From NCBI GenBank assembly GCA_028749115.1, contig JAQURD010000003.1:1-64000 (forward strand): a stretch of DNA of 64,000 nt, read 5' to 3'. Below the pieces are notes generated by a model that saw only the letters and a program-made list of their open reading frames with translations, was not told the origin of the DNA and did not search any database. Numbering within the stretch: the first letter of the stretch is position 1; each line of letters starts with the position of its first letter. Positions 2,720-16,101 of the stretch are shown here, piece by piece. Both the position numbers and the translations under genes were made by a program. This stretch comes from Acidobacteriota bacterium (GTDB lineage Bacteria > Acidobacteriota > Aminicenantia > Aminicenantales > Saccharicenantaceae).

Positions 2720-2936
2720 ATTTAGGCGCCCTCCTTTTTATTGATGTATTTAATCGACCTTGGACAAATTATATTTGTTAAGCTTTCAATAGGCTATTGT
2801 TTTTTTATCCTGGTTTGGCTGTAAATATCAAGTTGAGATCCATATCAAGAAGGTCCTCTTATCATTCATCCAAATTACCATTACCCCCTTCTTATTTAAC
2901 ACACTTTTGGCTGAACAGCCGTACTATTCCACTACT

Positions 2937-3008
2937 GTGGTAAGGATATTTCCCAGGGGCACGGTAAGGATATTTCCCACCCTCGTGGTAAACAGATTTC
3001 CCATACCC
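2937..3008 (+). repeat. Three tandem 24-bp units, likely IS21-type terminal repeats
   Basis: GTGGTAAGGATATTTCCCAGGGGC / ACGGTAAGGATATTTCCCACCCTC / GTGGTAAACAGATTTCCCATACCC. Confidence 0.75.
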
Positions 3009-8631: not shown

Positions 8632-10863
8632 TCAATTGGCCTTTCCCATCCTTTTTAAAGCTTCCACATTTATCGCATGACAAGTTTTTCTTCTTTTATC
8701 ATAAATACAATTCATCTGCCGCAGCTTTTCTATAGTAAGACCAGCCGCGAATATCTCTTTCCTGCTAAAGCCTTTTCCATTTCTAAACCCGTATCTATTT
8801 TGGACAAGAACCAGCATCGGCTGGCCTCTTTTAGAGATCTTGCACGCGTTTTTGAACCTAATTAGTTCAACAATTCCCACTAATTGAGATTCTTTTTTAA
8901 TTTTTACCTTCAGGGCAAGACTGTTCTTATATGTTTTTACAGTATCATATAATTGACCGAGACCCAAAACATAGTCAAGGCCTTTTCTTACCAATTTTGC
9001 CTCTTGCACTTGATTTCCCTTCTTTTCTAAGACGGCAATTAAATCGTATCTATTCTTGAAGTCATTGCTTCTAATCATAATGACGTCACCAAAATCGAAT
9101 CCATCTATTTTAGTAACACATGGTCTATTTCTCCACTTGTTTTCTTTTCTAAATTTCCATTTCAGTCTTGACATTACAACCTTCAAGTTGATTTTTTTAT
9201 CTGCACTGCCCTTTCTTGCAATATAAAACTGGACCCCATCTATCTCAGACTCGACTAACAGTATCATGGTCATTTCGTCTACGATAATTGACTTTATATT
9301 TTCCGCCACACTCAGCTGCCAATCTTTTAGGTCATCCAACTTAATTATGACTCTTTCGGTCCTGCTCCCCGTTTTTGGATCAGGAATTAAAAGTTCTTTG
9401 GGATATTTCAAGTCGATATAATTGATCCATCTAAAAAATAATGTTTCTTCAGAACTATCAGGATTTTTTTGACAAATATCCAACTGAAATTCGCCATATT
9501 CACAGGGCAAATCTTGGGGAAGATTAAGCGTTAAGGTATCCTCTCCGTCCCATCCATCGGCCACCATTTTCGAGCTGGCTTTCTCGGATTGTATCCAGAC
9601 CTGCCATTTGGAGAAATTTTTTCTTGGTGCCCTAATCTTTAAATTACCACCACAGAAAAGTGGGCTTTGATCTACAAAATAATCTTCTACCAAACAATCT
9701 CCCTCGATTGAGAAAGAACCACAACAAGGAATTTTCTTTATAATTCCTCTCGCTTTTTCTTCGATTATCACATGATCAGCTCTTTCCAAATTAACAGTAT
9801 ATAGACTATATGAATCCCACAACAACCGCATATCTTCTACGATTACATCTATTCCATCATCCCTCAAAACATATTCATCACTGAGCGCTACCCAAACCTT
9901 CTTTTTAGGAATTGGATTTATATTTGCCGTCTCATCGCAGAGATAAAAAAGACGACCCCTATTAGCTCCTCCACCAAGGAAAACATAAAGATCTGCACAA
10001 AGATGTTTATAATAATATATTCTTCTTTCTTGAATTTCGCAGGGGTATTTTACTTCAAGGCTTTTCAAAGGTTCTTTAAGCCGAATCCGGCTTTCTTCTA
10101 TATAGGCTAAAGATTGATTTGAGATGTCACACTTAACTGGGATTTTTTCTTTAACTCCATCATTTATCCTAACTTCATAAGCTTTTTCGAGGTCAGGATT
10201 ATCATAAGAAACGGTTTTAAGTCGTTGTTCTGGTAGCACTAAATAGGCCACAACTTCGTCTAATACTTCGTTTCCCAAGTCTATTTCTATAAATGGACAT
10301 TTTATTATAGATTGATACCCACTTTCTTTAGTTGATTTTTCTTTTTTATCGAGTTCACTTTCGTATTCTTTTCTTGGTTTTTTTCGTTTAGGTCTTGTTT
10401 TGCCATGTCCACCCAAATAAATAGGAGTAATCCTTGTTTTTGAGCGGCCAGGTGCCCCATTTCCAGACGCTATCTCGGGATGTCTGGCCTCCCCTTCCGT
10501 TGGCGGCTTAATAATCTTGGGCTTTTTAGGTTTTTCTTCCTCATGAAGTTCGGATTGAACCCAAGGTATAGGGGCCTGTTTTTCTTCAGTCGTGATTAGT
10601 TCTTTTGACTCTGGTTCCGTTTGCGTCTCGTCTTCTTCTTGTCCAAAGACCTCTTTTTCCTTTCTTCTAGTTTCCTCTCCCTGGGGCTCAAAATAGCCAT
10701 CCCCGTATGGTCCAGGTATCTCAATAGGTTCAACGACAGTTTCTTCTTCATCTTTTTCGCCGCGTTTTTTCAACCGAAAACTAAATAAACATCGTATCCC
10801 CAGCAATAAAGCTTTTATTTGTGCCCCTATGCGACCAGCAATATTTCGGAATCTTCCCCCCAT
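8632..10863 (-). CDS. 743-aa uncharacterised helicase-partner protein with charged low-complexity N-terminal region and L13e-like C-terminal segment
   Basis: Stop is 1 nt from the helicase ATG (TGA-T-ATG), implying co-translation; C-terminal GKGFSRKEIFAAGLTIEKLRQMNCIYDKRRKTCHAINVEALKRM. Confidence 0.75.
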   Translation of the reverse strand: MGGRFRNIAGRIGAQIKALLLGIRCLFSFRLKKRGEKDEEETVVEPIEIPGPYGDGYFEPQGEETRRKEKEVFGQEEDETQTEPESKELITTEEKQAPIPWVQSELHEEEKPKKPKIIKPPTEGEARHPEIASGNGAPGRSKTRITPIYLGGHGKTRPKRKKPRKEYESELDKKEKSTKESGYQSIIKCPFIEIDLGNEVLDEVVAYLVLPEQRLKTVSYDNPDLEKAYEVRINDGVKEKIPVKCDISNQSLAYIEESRIRLKEPLKSLEVKYPCEIQERRIYYYKHLCADLYVFLGGGANRGRLFYLCDETANINPIPKKKVWVALSDEYVLRDDGIDVIVEDMRLLWDSYSLYTVNLERADHVIIEEKARGIIKKIPCCGSFSIEGDCLVEDYFVDQSPLFCGGNLKIRAPRKNFSKWQVWIQSEKASSKMVADGWDGEDTLTLNLPQDLPCEYGEFQLDICQKNPDSSEETLFFRWINYIDLKYPKELLIPDPKTGSRTERVIIKLDDLKDWQLSVAENIKSIIVDEMTMILLVESEIDGVQFYIARKGSADKKINLKVVMSRLKWKFRKENKWRNRPCVTKIDGFDFGDVIMIRSNDFKNRYDLIAVLEKKGNQVQEAKLVRKGLDYVLGLGQLYDTVKTYKNSLALKVKIKKESQLVGIVELIRFKNACKISKRGQPMLVLVQNRYGFRNGKGFSRKEIFAAGLTIEKLRQMNCIYDKRRKTCHAINVEALKRMGKAN

Positions 10864-11080
10864 TTTTACTCGCCTCTTTGATTATAGAACCCAGCCTAAA
10901 TAAAATGAGAATAAAAGCATAGTCGTTAACGCTGTTTTAACTGAAATAGTTTTGCCCTCTCATAATTCATACCAAGACATCATAAATATGTCAACTCATT
11001 GTTACAATTTTGCTATTCCAAGAGTCTTGGTAATCTATACCGTTTCCTGTATATCAGTTTACAACACACGGATTTGGGCA

Positions 11081-11227
11081 GTTAATTTTAAATTGAAAAG
11101 AGGCAGGTTCCGCTTTCGCTTCACGAGGGGAAAAATGGAACATATAGCGACTTCCGATTTTCGGGCTGGCGACAGCATGGTCCGTGCCCGAAAACAATAG
11201 TGAATATCTAGGGTGTCCCCATTTTTC
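11081..11227 (+). repeat. Composite repeat: 40-bp box A (11081-11120) and 29-bp box B (11199-11227), copy 2
   Basis: Box A matches 16018-16057 at 34/40; box B identical to 1855-1883. Confidence 0.85.
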
Positions 11228-11310
11228 GTGGGAGCCGGCCCAGCTGGGGCTGACTTCGTTTCGCATCCCTACACCCGAACAGCATCCCTTAACCTAAACG
11301 ATGAAAGTAC

Positions 11311-11370
11311 TTGACTTTTTATTTATTATTTATTATCAAGTAATTATAACTAATTATAACAGTTGATAAC
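11311..11370 (+). promoter_or_regulatory. Putative promoter and operator of the HTH-DUF4338-NurA-HerA operon
   Basis: TTGACT-17 bp-TATCAA, followed by tandem taattataac/taattataac/agttgataac. Confidence 0.4.
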
Positions 11371-11391
11371 TATGAACAAAAGGATATTGTT

Positions 11392-11580
11392 ATGAACAAA
11401 TGGTTAACTCTTGAACAAATAGCTGAATATTTGCAGATGAGTAAGTCTTCTATTTATAAGATGGCTCAGGGTGGTAAGATCCCTGCTTACAAGGTTGGTA
11501 GGCAATGGAGATTTAAGGAAGAAGAAATTGACACTTGGGTTGCAAAAAGAAAAGTTGTGAGGCAAAAGGATAAAAAATAA
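11392..11580 (+). CDS. Excisionase-family helix-turn-helix (HTH_17-like) protein
   Basis: MNKWLTLEQIAEYLQMSKSSIYKMAQGGKIPAYKVGRQWRFKEEEIDTWV is a typical excisionase-family HTH; RBS aaagga upstream. Confidence 0.85.
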   Translation: MNKWLTLEQIAEYLQMSKSSIYKMAQGGKIPAYKVGRQWRFKEEEIDTWVAKRKVVRQKDKK

Positions 11581-11582
11581 AA

Positions 11583-12722
11583 ATGACACTAAATCAATCT
11601 CAAAGAAAACTCCGAGAGAAAATCATTCAGGACTTACAAGAACAAGGATTTAAAATAAATCCCCATGTGAGGCCAAAGGGATATAGCAAAGCTACATACC
11701 GCAGAATTCAACAAAAGGCACGATTTGAGCAATTATCTTTGCATAAGACTTCTTTAGTAGATTCAATTAAAAAAGTAAAAAATTATTGTAGAGACGGTTC
11801 TGAAATCATCCCCGAGAGAATTTCTTTAGAATTAAGAGAGGTGCAATCAGATTCTTTCGAAGAAACCTTATTTAGATGGTGGAATTTAATCTGGTGGAGT
11901 ATTCCATTTCAACGCTCATATGGTCGCCAGATGAGATTTTTATTATGGGACACAACACATGACGCACCATTTGGTTTGATTTGTCTCCAAAGTCCAGTAT
12001 TAAAAATGGCCGTTCGTGATAGGTGGCTTGCTTTACCTAATGATGAGTTAGACATATGGGTAAACAGATCATTGAATGCACAGCGAGTTGGAGCTTTACC
12101 TCCTTACAATGAAATATTAGGAGGGAAAATGGTTGCTCTTACTTTGTCCTGCAATGAAATAAGAGAAGCTTATGAGAGGAAATACAAAAATTATGTATCA
12201 ATCATTAAAGAGAGAAAATTAGAACCTAAACTTTTATTTATTACTACTACAAGTGCATTTGGAAGAAGCAGTTTATATAATCGGTTAAAGTATAATGGCG
12301 AGGTTGTGGCAGAATGTTTAGGTTATACGCAAGGTTCAGGCACATTTCATATTCCAGAAGAGTTATATGAGGAAATCCTTGAGTTTTTAAGAGATCGTGG
12401 GGTTGATATAGCAAGGGGCTATGGTTATGGCCCTTCAAGAAAATTAAAACTAATAAGTCTTGGTCTAAAATATCTTAAACTTCCAAAATTTGAATATCAT
12501 GGCATTAAACGCCAGTTTTATTTATTTCCCCTTGTCAAAAACCTAAGAGAAGTTATCCAGAAAAGAAAAAGACCTATTTGGGTTGATCGTCCTTTCAATA
12601 ATCTTGAGGATTTCTGGAAGGAGAGATGGGCAATACCAAGGGCAAAAAGAATGCCTGAATGGAAAAATTTTAATAGCAATAACTTTTTAAAAAACGCAGA
12701 AAGAATGTTGAAGGAGTTATAA
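11583..12722 (+). CDS. DUF4338-family (Druantia DruA-like) protein
   Basis: GYSKATYRRI...FGLICLQSPVLKMAVRDRWLALP...NAQRVGALPPY...PKLLFITTTSAFGRSSLYNRLKYNGEVVAECLGYTQGSGTFHIPE resembles the DUF4338/DruA pattern. Confidence 0.75.
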   Translation: MTLNQSQRKLREKIIQDLQEQGFKINPHVRPKGYSKATYRRIQQKARFEQLSLHKTSLVDSIKKVKNYCRDGSEIIPERISLELREVQSDSFEETLFRWWNLIWWSIPFQRSYGRQMRFLLWDTTHDAPFGLICLQSPVLKMAVRDRWLALPNDELDIWVNRSLNAQRVGALPPYNEILGGKMVALTLSCNEIREAYERKYKNYVSIIKERKLEPKLLFITTTSAFGRSSLYNRLKYNGEVVAECLGYTQGSGTFHIPEELYEEILEFLRDRGVDIARGYGYGPSRKLKLISLGLKYLKLPKFEYHGIKRQFYLFPLVKNLREVIQKRKRPIWVDRPFNNLEDFWKERWAIPRAKRMPEWKNFNSNNFLKNAERMLKEL

Positions 12723-13862
12723 ATGGAAAAAGTTGAACAAACTCCTTTTGCTGAATTGCCGGAAGCTTTGGTAGAAGAACTGCTTTCCAAAAGTGAGCTA
12801 GTCGGTGATATGCTTTATGATTCTTTTAAGGAAATTCAAAATAATAAAGCTAAAATGCGGAAACAGTTGCAAGAACAAAATATTCTGAAACAGGATACAG
12901 AAGTGGGATACCCAGGGATACCAACGACTTGTGGCGTAGATGGTTCGTATGCGGTCGAGAAACTTTTAGCAACTGATTTTGCTGCTTGTGCAGCCGTGGC
13001 AATTGAGGGATTAACTCCACCTTCTGAAAAAAGACACTGGGAAAAACCTCATCACAGAGTATTTATTCATCCAGAAAAGCATGATCCAGACACAGGCACA
13101 ATTATCAGAGGATTAATGATGGAAATGGAACTTGAACTTGGAGCAAAGGCCCCTCATGATATAGTTTTCTTAGACGGTTCTCTCACAACACCTTTAATAT
13201 ATATGAATCAAGCAATAAATAAAATGGCAGAATCTAATAATACCGTCATAGATAAGAATCTTTCAGAAAAGTTTAAGAATTTTCTTGAATCATACAAAAC
13301 TGTTCTAGAGTCCTTAAGAACCGATAAATTATGGGTAAGTATGCCAAAATACACTACAAGAAGGGAGTTAGGCAATAGGCTAAGTTGGTCATCTCATTAT
13401 GATGACAGAGCGATTTTGACAACCATTTTATCTCCGGGCGAATTTACCTCACCGATCCCATTAGAAGAACCTCAACAGCCCTGGCACTTAAGACTTCCTT
13501 TCAAAGATAAAGAACTTGAAGGATTAAGAGATGAGGTTATATCAGCCATAAATAGGCTTTATGTTATGTATTACAGACCTCATAATTGGACACCAGTTTT
13601 TAGGATTGAGATGGCATCTTCAATTGCGACAAATAATTCTCGGATAGCAGTATTACTTCAAGGTCTTAAATATCAATCAGGTACGCCCGGCATTCTTGAA
13701 CCATATCCTCTCTATATAGCAGACCGTATGGTAAAACACCTCGGTAGCGCTATTCCTGCCTTTAGACAAACTGCTACCAGAAGAATGACGGAATTACATC
13801 AAGGAGATATCGGAGAGATTTTTTTTAGCATGCATGGTTATAGAACCGAAAGTGGGAGGTAG
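12723..13862 (+). CDS. NurA-domain nuclease-like protein
   Basis: CGVDGSYAVEKL and IVFLDGSLTTPLIY (NurA DGS/LDGSL motifs), C-terminal YPLYIADRMVKHL; immediately upstream of a HerA-like gene. Confidence 0.75.
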   Translation: MEKVEQTPFAELPEALVEELLSKSELVGDMLYDSFKEIQNNKAKMRKQLQEQNILKQDTEVGYPGIPTTCGVDGSYAVEKLLATDFAACAAVAIEGLTPPSEKRHWEKPHHRVFIHPEKHDPDTGTIIRGLMMEMELELGAKAPHDIVFLDGSLTTPLIYMNQAINKMAESNNTVIDKNLSEKFKNFLESYKTVLESLRTDKLWVSMPKYTTRRELGNRLSWSSHYDDRAILTTILSPGEFTSPIPLEEPQQPWHLRLPFKDKELEGLRDEVISAINRLYVMYYRPHNWTPVFRIEMASSIATNNSRIAVLLQGLKYQSGTPGILEPYPLYIADRMVKHLGSAIPAFRQTATRRMTELHQGDIGEIFFSMHGYRTESGR

Positions 13863-13865
13863 GTT

Positions 13866-15644
13866 ATGAGTGAAGAAAGAAAAAATATCGACCAACTAAT
13901 CAGCACTTCTGAACGTATTGGTACAATAGGTTCCCCATCTTCTACTAGCAATCTTTCATTAGATATCCTTGGAACTGCTGTTGACAAAAAATTAGTAGGG
14001 GAGCTTGCACTTTTTAGATTTTCTCAGGATGGGAAGCCACATTATGCATTAGGCCAAATAACGGAAGTTCAACTAAAGAATATCTGGCTTGAAGACCCAA
14101 CAATGAGGTCCCTTGCAAGACAAAGAGGTCAAGTAAATCCTGTTAGTGGACAGCAAGATACTCATTTAGGTGATATGACTGTAAGTGCAGTATTTAGCAA
14201 CGATGGGCATAGATTTGAACCGAGTATTTTGGGTACTGTTCCAGCTACTGGAACCGCTATCCATTTAGCAACTGACGAGATATTAGATAGGTTGTTAGAA
14301 CTCTACAGGGATGAAATATTTTATTTAGGTCATGTTTATGGTTCAACACCAAAACTACCTCTTTGGTTTAAACATTTTGGAACAGGTCCACATGGAGCGG
14401 GTGAAGCATACCACATTGGAATCTTTGGTAAAACTGGGTCAGGAAAGTCAGTTCTTGCAAAGATGATTGTCTTGGCATATTCACGGTATAAGGATATGGG
14501 GATATTTATATTAGATCCTCAAGGAGAATTTGCAAAAGGGCTTAAAACGTCCTCTATGTTTATTGAAATGGAGAACATTTTGTGTCTACAAACACTATCT
14601 AATCTCCAAAAACCCTTTAAAATATATGACTTAGATAAAATTGCTTTGGACAGATGGAGTCTATTTGCTCAGCTTTTAATGGAATTCAGATTCTTTTTTG
14701 AATTAGGAATTAAGTCCTACGAGTATCAAGAAATAGCTGCAGATTATGTAGAAGATTTACTGAAAAGTGACTCAAACATTACTTTTAAGAATTTAAACAC
14801 AGATGTTTTACTCCGTATTCTTGAGCATTTGAATGGAAATATTCAGAGGATTTATGGTACTTCAACAGGTATAGATAGAGTTAGACAATTTATCAGTGAG
14901 TATAGACAGAAAATTTCGTCTTCTACACAAAATAAGATTCTAGAAATTTGGAATAGAACTGTAGGTTTGTTCAGACCTACCGCTGATAAAAGATCACCTA
15001 AAGAAATTATTAAAGAAATAATTTCCCAGAGTAGTATCCGACCTGTTGTCATTATAGATCTGTCAAAAAAACCGGAAGAAATATCTCAATTTATTTGGGA
15101 TGAAAAAATAAAACCCCTTATAATTGAATGCTTTTTAAGTAATTTAGTTATCACAGCAGATTATTTTTATAAAGGAGATAAAAGTTTAAATACTTTAGTT
15201 ATTATAGATGAAGCACATAGGCTCGCTCCTCGCGGGAAGTTAGAAAACGAAAAGAAAGAGAAAATACGTTCTACTTTAATTGATGCAGTTAGAACAACTC
15301 GTAAATACGGTTTAGGATGGTTATTCATAAGTCAAACACTTTCCAGCCTTGATAAAGAGATTATTGAGCAACTACGAATAAACTTTTTTGGATTTGGATT
15401 ATCTATGGGAACAGAGCTTCAAGCTCTTAAAGAGTTAGTAGGTGGTATTCCCAATGCTCTTAAACTTTATCAATCGTTTCGTGATCCACATAGTGCCTTT
15501 GACATTGCCTCCAGGCAATATGCTTTTATGACTATTGGACCAGTCTCACCTCTCTCATTTGCTGGCACCCCTCTTTTCCTCACAGTTTATAATACCCCTC
15601 AACAATTTTTAAGAGCAAATCAGCTCTTGAGAGACGGTAATTAA
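13866..15644 (+). CDS. HerA-like FtsK/HerA-superfamily ATPase
   Basis: Walker A GIFGKTGSGKSVLAK, ILDPQGEF, Walker B LVIIDEAHRLAPRG, RTTRKYGLGWLFISQ; paired with NurA-like gene. Confidence 0.88.
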   Translation: MSEERKNIDQLISTSERIGTIGSPSSTSNLSLDILGTAVDKKLVGELALFRFSQDGKPHYALGQITEVQLKNIWLEDPTMRSLARQRGQVNPVSGQQDTHLGDMTVSAVFSNDGHRFEPSILGTVPATGTAIHLATDEILDRLLELYRDEIFYLGHVYGSTPKLPLWFKHFGTGPHGAGEAYHIGIFGKTGSGKSVLAKMIVLAYSRYKDMGIFILDPQGEFAKGLKTSSMFIEMENILCLQTLSNLQKPFKIYDLDKIALDRWSLFAQLLMEFRFFFELGIKSYEYQEIAADYVEDLLKSDSNITFKNLNTDVLLRILEHLNGNIQRIYGTSTGIDRVRQFISEYRQKISSSTQNKILEIWNRTVGLFRPTADKRSPKEIIKEIISQSSIRPVVIIDLSKKPEEISQFIWDEKIKPLIIECFLSNLVITADYFYKGDKSLNTLVIIDEAHRLAPRGKLENEKKEKIRSTLIDAVRTTRKYGLGWLFISQTLSSLDKEIIEQLRINFFGFGLSMGTELQALKELVGGIPNALKLYQSFRDPHSAFDIASRQYAFMTIGPVSPLSFAGTPLFLTVYNTPQQFLRANQLLRDGN

Positions 15645-15668: not shown

Positions 15669-15917
15669 AAGGGTATCAAGGATAATCAAGCCGAAAAAGA
15701 ATTTTCATCTTGTGAAGTTCAAGAGCAGAAGCTAAAAGCTTTTGTTAAGAGCCAGAATAACGGGGAGCTTTCTAAGGATTATGCTAACTCGGTTACATTT
15801 GAGAAATAGAAAGTTGATTTTATTCCTATCACTGAAAGGTTTGATACCTATCAATAGGCGAATAGTATTACTAGACCGAAGGCACTGGTCGATGGGATTA
15901 TAAGAACCATTCTTTAA
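15669..15917 (+). pseudogene. Decayed reading frame with two in-frame TAG codons
   Basis: KGIKDNQAEKEFSSCEVQEQKLKAFVKSQNNGELSKDYANSVTFEK*KVDFIPITERFDTYQ*ANSITRPKALVDGIIRTIL* in one frame. Confidence 0.4.
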
Positions 15918-16017: not shown

Positions 16018-16101
16018 GTTAATTTTAAATTGGAAAAGGACAGGTTCCTCTATCGCTGGGCTCACGAAAAATAGTGTATATCTAGGGTGTCCCCATCTTT
16101 C
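16018..16101 (+). repeat. Composite repeat copy 3: box A (16018-16057) and box B (16073-16101)
   Basis: gttaattttaaattggaaaagg...agtgtatatctagggtgtccccatctttc; box B differs from copies 1/2 at 2 of 29 positions. Confidence 0.85.

Follow-up and report, generated by a model that had tools for sequence, protein, structure and literature searches.

What does a compact operon encoding DruA, NurA and HerA do in a bacterium, and which of its genes form the working unit? The operon lies in a window of 64,000 nucleotides (nt) from an Acidobacteriota bacterium (GenBank assembly GCA_028749115.1, contig JAQURD010000003.1, positions 1 to 64,000 of the forward strand). An initial annotation, made from the letters alone, had described four genes for a small helix-turn-helix (HTH) protein, a DUF4338 (DruA-like) protein, NurA and HerA as a candidate undescribed defence system, in which DUF4338 might recognize or nick foreign DNA for a HerA-NurA machine and the HTH protein would control expression. 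The coordinates of the open reading frames confirmed four co-directional genes separated by 2, 0 and 3 nt, and all four family assignments held, each scoring above its curated Pfam cut-off (see the table). In comparison to PADLOC profiles, DruA scored 289.5 bits (DruA1) and HerA 62 bits. We propose that three of these genes, druA-nurA-herA, constitute a mobile unit that probably acts against invading DNA, with HerA feeding DNA to NurA and the DNA entrance domain of HerA helping to set the targeting.

The recurrence of the unit was followed with NurA alone as the query and one genome per species, which yielded 61 loci (given below as L plus a number) spread, according to record titles and taxonomy, over at least about 15 phyla, some of them archaeal. 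Cultured carriers include Caldanaerobacter subterraneus (L020) and Pyrinomonas methylaliphatogenes (L040). DruA was found beside NurA-HerA in 57 of the 61 loci. Since these loci were recovered through NurA only, the arrangement is not due to chance, and the recurrence in other genomes that the initial annotation had suggested looking for was thereby found in distant phyla. The remaining four comprise two loci cut by a contig end (L019 and L046), a degenerate copy (L054) and L063, whose upstream gene was considered but rejected because it is not detectable as DruA. The druA gene is located upstream of nurA-herA in 56 loci and downstream in L048, and most neighbouring genes of the unit overlap or lie a few nucleotides apart. 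Flanking genes vary; the largest cluster of them covers 5 loci, and nothing besides the three-gene unit is constant. Only three loci, the window, L012 and L017, have the HTH gene directly upstream of druA, and L027 has it nearby; the view of the HTH protein as an integral part of the system therefore had to be given up. NurA relatives are rare among kin: 2 of 60 near relatives carry one, as do 2 of the 396 genomes available from the phylum, with the window genome included in the count. No relative of the window NurA was found in viral contigs and phage genomes, and plasmids yielded no more than one distant NurA-HerA pair each from Rhizobium and Natribaculum. The Rhizobium pair (L006, plasmid pRlX5, 9610-16985) is 25-32% identical and is preceded by two unassigned genes of ~390 codons, of which the one just upstream was rejected as DruA because it was not detectable as such; an HSP90-like ATPase gene follows. 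This locus is perhaps a sister system. We conclude that the core is a mobile, horizontally spread three-gene unit and that the HTH gene is not part of it.

Both enzymes of the putative machine appear intact. In 56 of 56 sequences, NurA retains D73, D151 and Y373 (E136 is kept in 55 of 56), and HerA retains Walker A, D448, E449, R479, K480 and Q490. A HerA with Walker A and B motifs, an arginine finger and a Q sensor, encoded adjacent to a NurA with acidic catalytic residues, fits the HerA-NurA translocase-nuclease machines. The AlphaFold2 (AF2) model of HerA (predicted local distance difference test [pLDDT] score of 87.2) matched HerA structures in Foldseek with E values of about 1e-20 and resembles those of DUF4297-HerA, archaeal HerA-NurA, TdpA and SIR2-HerA. 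A NurA profile built from our loci matched no solved NurA in the PDB.

A new observation, missed by the initial annotation, concerns one segment of HerA, which has been replaced or has diverged quickly among operons that are nearly identical elsewhere. In comparison to its closest relative, L011, the window protein is 99% identical in NurA, about 96% in HerA residues 1-210 and about 84% in the C-terminal part of HerA, whereas residues 225-440 are only 27% identical; identity in this segment drops to 24-30% between relatives that are 95-98% alike in the N-terminal part. The DNA comparison of the same pair displays the break: identity is 95-100% over most of nurA and the 5′ part of herA (the first 100 nt of nurA reach 81%), 82% at about position 14420, 39-62% between about 14520 and 15220, and 99% again at 15520. 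Because L011 and L015 are 83% identical in the segment with NurA at 81%, the segment is not simply hypervariable everywhere. A tree of the framework (NurA plus HerA without the segment) was then set against a tree of the segment alone. The framework joined the window with L011 (support of 100), whereas the segment joined it with L020 (100/99). In the approximately unbiased (AU) test, window+L011 was rejected on the segment (p 1e-4) and window+L020 on the framework (p 0.009). On the segment, two further framework groups failed the same test, L034+L056+L058 with p 3e-5 and L035+L055 with p 5e-4; the tested groups were picked after viewing the trees and the segment branches of the window, L020 and L036 are long, so that all of these p values are indicative. 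Identity of herA also drops locally in the same segment for L042/L045 (to 69%) and L021/L024 (to 59%), with flanks mostly above 85%, which may reflect replacement or fast divergence.

The variable segment is flanked by the DPQGEF and Walker B motifs and, in the AF2 model, comprises a helical insertion forming a helix bundle (221-386), one core strand (394-398) and a helix (408-436); the strand carrying Walker B comes next, at 443. Deinococcus HerA has its helix bundle inserted behind strand two, where it forms the putative entrance for DNA, and the HAS barrel there is the exit and binds NurA (PMC9960219). Because the segment holds this bundle, the variable part is placed, by analogy, at the mouth of the motor, opposite the NurA-binding face. 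In the proposed mechanism, double-stranded DNA would enter a HerA hexamer at the helix-bundle face, probably end first, and the motor would thread it across the ring to a NurA dimer, which would sit at the HAS barrel on the other side and degrade it. Discrimination between self and non-self, or activation, would lie outside the nuclease, in DruA and the HerA entrance domain: DruA, acetyltransferase-like by its predicted GNAT fold, may modify or sense something, and the entrance domain may contact a variable target or a variable inhibitor. We assign the entrance domain this role because replacement or diversification is expected of a part with such contacts.

The anti-invader reading, which we consider the probable one, is based on the conservation of the unit amid varying flanks, its rarity among kin, its intact active-site residues, the broad agreement of the DruA tree with the framework, the likeness of HerA to the structures named above and the variable entrance domain, and the initial interpretation as a whole is partly supported. 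The neighbourhood of other copies adds little to it. Among 99 near genes (at most 3 genes from the unit, L011-L043) and 99 far genes (at least 5 genes away), PADLOC families matched at 1e-15 numbered 90 and 25, respectively, with many of these families overlapping, and N6/N4 methylases accounted for 4/99 near and at most 1/99 far genes. The excess of restriction-modification (R-M) or defence-type genes near the unit is suggestive but weak and not significant; of the enrichment near defence genes that the initial annotation had proposed to look for, there remain this excess and a DruE pair adjoining the operon in the window. Several points argue in the other direction. Close neighbours are often housekeeping genes, with defence-type genes exceeding the far-gene control only weakly. 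A fourth framework group, L028+L036+L042+L045, was not rejected on the segment (p 0.185), and segment variability was gauged within the present set of loci. The variable entrance domain could also have arisen by evading inhibitors and not by choosing targets. Finally, archaea and Deinococcus use NurA-HerA pairs in DNA repair, and it is for end resection that the two families are chiefly known (PMC5715905, PMC9960219). A repair or recombination module without a defence role would agree with this and with the many thermophiles among the carriers, but not with a patchy, phylum-crossing distribution and absence from most relatives, nor with the constant DruA partner, the exchange of one HerA domain and a decayed recombinase gene adjoining the operon; we regard such a module as improbable.

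The predicted fold of DruA bears on its contribution. The AF2 model (pLDDT of 89.9) found mostly GNATs as its best PDB matches in Foldseek, although these matches were weak (best E 0.085, prob up to 0.96), and a 2024 analysis names DUF4338 a GNAT domain (PMC10853773). Since DruA models as a GNAT fold, the nicking role initially considered for DUF4338 is unlikely. A DruA profile matched no relevant PDB chain. Across 52 sequences DruA has many invariant positions, among them a PPYxxxxxGK motif and TxSAxGxSSxYxR, and therefore looks like an active protein; its conserved VPPYxxLLGGKLVAL-like motif resembles the canonical coenzyme A pyrophosphate loop without matching it. Among viral models, the top matches were unannotated giant-virus and phage proteins, with phage Mom in sixth place (E 0.023, prob 0.93). 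Mom is a GNAT-fold base-modifying enzyme. The DruA tree displayed broadly the same major groups as the framework tree. A DruA swap in L018, L020 and L066, whose DruA is 34-35% identical to that of the window, was considered and dropped, as the deep groups broadly follow the framework.

These matches raise the alternative of an R-M-like three-gene system, in which a GNAT-fold DruA would chemically mark self DNA and HerA-NurA would degrade unmarked DNA, as in TdpABC, whose TdpC is a phosphorothioation enzyme. DruA is nearly always found with NurA-HerA, as a protecting enzyme would be, and, besides the GNAT-like fold and the weaker match to Mom, HerA resembles TdpA of the TdpAB complex. However, the modification is hypothetical, the fold matches are weak and DruA of type I Druantia is not known as a modifier. 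Moreover, DruA does not vary in step with the exchanged segment of HerA, so the two do not behave like a matched pair of specificities. We consider a marking DruA unlikely. A bolder version, rather unlikely in our view, adds to GNAT-type marking by DruA and destruction of unmarked DNA by HerA-NurA a helix-bundle entrance that serves as an exchangeable specificity cassette; if true, the HerA entrance would be the motor's counterpart of the target-recognition domains of restriction enzymes, and a new division of labour would result.

As to the surroundings of the unit in the window, the operon has a G+C content of ~0.36-0.37, compared to some 0.42-0.50 beyond 16 kb, and the decayed recombinase gene corresponds to an intact serine recombinase gene (Resolvase+Recombinase) located 3 nt after herA in L012. 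Divergent from the operon and starting 529 nt away, a DruE helicase gene and a gene for a 743-aa protein were missed by the initial annotation. The 743-aa protein matches no PADLOC model; no plasmid relative was found, nor any other match at 1e-8 in the 396 genomes of the phylum. In L084, from the same genus, a related DruE lies beside a 708-aa protein (11327-13453) that matches the 743-aa protein weakly (E 1.4e-8) and has the same L13e-like tail; two genes beyond lies the gene of a type I restriction subunit, and druA-nurA-herA was not found there. Because of this related pair, we read DruE and the 743-aa protein as probably a separate Druantia-like pair that shares one small island with the operon. 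That both instead belong to a larger Druantia-type system with druA-nurA-herA might be argued from their closeness and from L044, where a different DruE gene lies upstream in one operon with druA-nurA-herA. Among the loci, though, DruE was found only in the window and L044, a frequency on which it was rejected as part of the core; the L084 pair occurs without the unit, and no PADLOC match to DruB, DruC or DruD was obtained among six proteins scanned in the region. Such a larger system is very improbable. In L085, L086 and L087, also from the same genus, a DruE of ~1740 aa lies beside a 464-aa protein, an AAA_14/DUF4143 ATPase in the L085 copy, which is apparently another DruE pairing.

A direct repeat, TATCTAGGGTGTCCCCAT, brackets both the DruE pair and the operon. 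It was also found on contigs C4, C25 and C33 of G000, with 7 copies in the genome at up to 2 mismatches and 0 for the reversed control, and may mark where a dispersed mobile repeat ends. Three tandem near-copies of GTGGTAAGGATATTTCCCA at about 2935-3005 of the window resemble insertion-sequence ends.

Table. Features of the operon and its surroundings (window coordinates)
Feature	Position	Strand	Evidence
18-nt direct repeat TATCTAGGGTGTCCCCAT	1861-1878, 11205-11222, 16079-16096	direct orientation	brackets both DruE pair and operon
DruE-like YprA-family helicase, 1610 aa	3798..8630	-	PADLOC DruE1 616 bits; Pfam DEAD, Helicase_C, MZB
743-aa protein with L13e-like C-terminus, partner of DruE	8632..10863	-	L13e 51 bits, below cut-off 96
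HTH_17/MAD1-like small DNA-binding protein, 62 aa, optional member	11392..11580	+	Pfam HTH_17 70.6 bits, 1.4e-19
DruA/DUF4338 protein, 379 aa, predicted GNAT-like fold	11583..12722	+	Pfam DruA 233.5 bits (cut-off 27), 3.8e-69
NurA-family nuclease, 379 aa	12723..13862	+	Pfam NurA 48.7 bits (cut-off 21), 8.8e-13
HerA-family DNA translocase, presumably hexameric, 592 aa	13866..15644	+	Pfam DUF87/HerA 67 bits (cut-off 23.2), 3.4e-18
Exchanged HerA segment, residues about 225-440	14538..15185	+	identity drop, tree conflict; domain map after PMC9960219
Decayed serine recombinase gene remnant	15681..15875	+	tblastn with intact L012 gene: 36%, E 1e-13; stops and internal deletion

Other copies of the unit carry optional genes. 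Four loci contain an extra gene between druA and nurA: a Sacsin/NO-VEIN protein of ~1050 aa lies exactly there in two distant hosts (L011, 6854-9985; L017, 2769-5933) and is regarded as an optional module, while L012 encodes a pentapeptide-repeat protein and L071 an HNH protein at this position. A UvrD-PD-(D/E)XK protein is encoded upstream in L030, with proteins of the same family in L027, L056 and L070. In L044, the locus with DruE in the operon, a GmrSD_N (type IV restriction) protein is encoded after herA (10105-11883).

The unit thus adds a compact, widely spread HerA-nuclease module to the catalogue of candidate defence systems and offers a small, testable setting for DruA. It also draws attention to the entrance domain of HerA, where exchange or rapid change recurs, and how HerA motors choose DNA can be tested directly with naturally occurring pairs of operons whose main difference lies there.

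As the initial annotation had supposed, no catalogued system matched: no description of the DruA-NurA-HerA combination was found in PADLOC-DB (2023), NCBIfam or the literature searched, which is weak evidence, as the search did not cover subscription papers and most preprints. Partial likenesses were found to several systems. With Druantia type I, the unit shares DruA and a nearby DruE; however, its core is NurA-HerA, and DruE is divergent and outside the conserved unit. The HTH protein comes close to MAD1 of the methylation-associated defence system (MADS; NCBIfam, 78 bits, just under the cut-off of 80), but no other MADS component was recognized in the window apart from a generic HerA-like match to mad8. 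The two enzyme families, and presumably the ring-and-dimer architecture, are those of archaeal and Deinococcus HerA-NurA end resection, to which the unit adds DruA and a patchy spread across phyla. The HerA-nuclease defence pairs DUF4297-HerA and SIR2-HerA likewise couple a HerA motor of the same fold to an effector, which in our unit is NurA, with DruA added. In design, TdpABC comes closest: it is found in thermophiles and combines a HerA-fold motor with a nuclease partner and a third gene separating self from non-self. The window HerA is 16-18% identical to its motor (PDB 8wet, TdpA; 8wfd, TdpAB) and is no close orthologue of TdpA, since phmmer gave no match at E 0.01 and a broad profile reached only 2.8e-9. 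In place of the third gene of TdpABC, the unit described here carries DruA/DUF4338.

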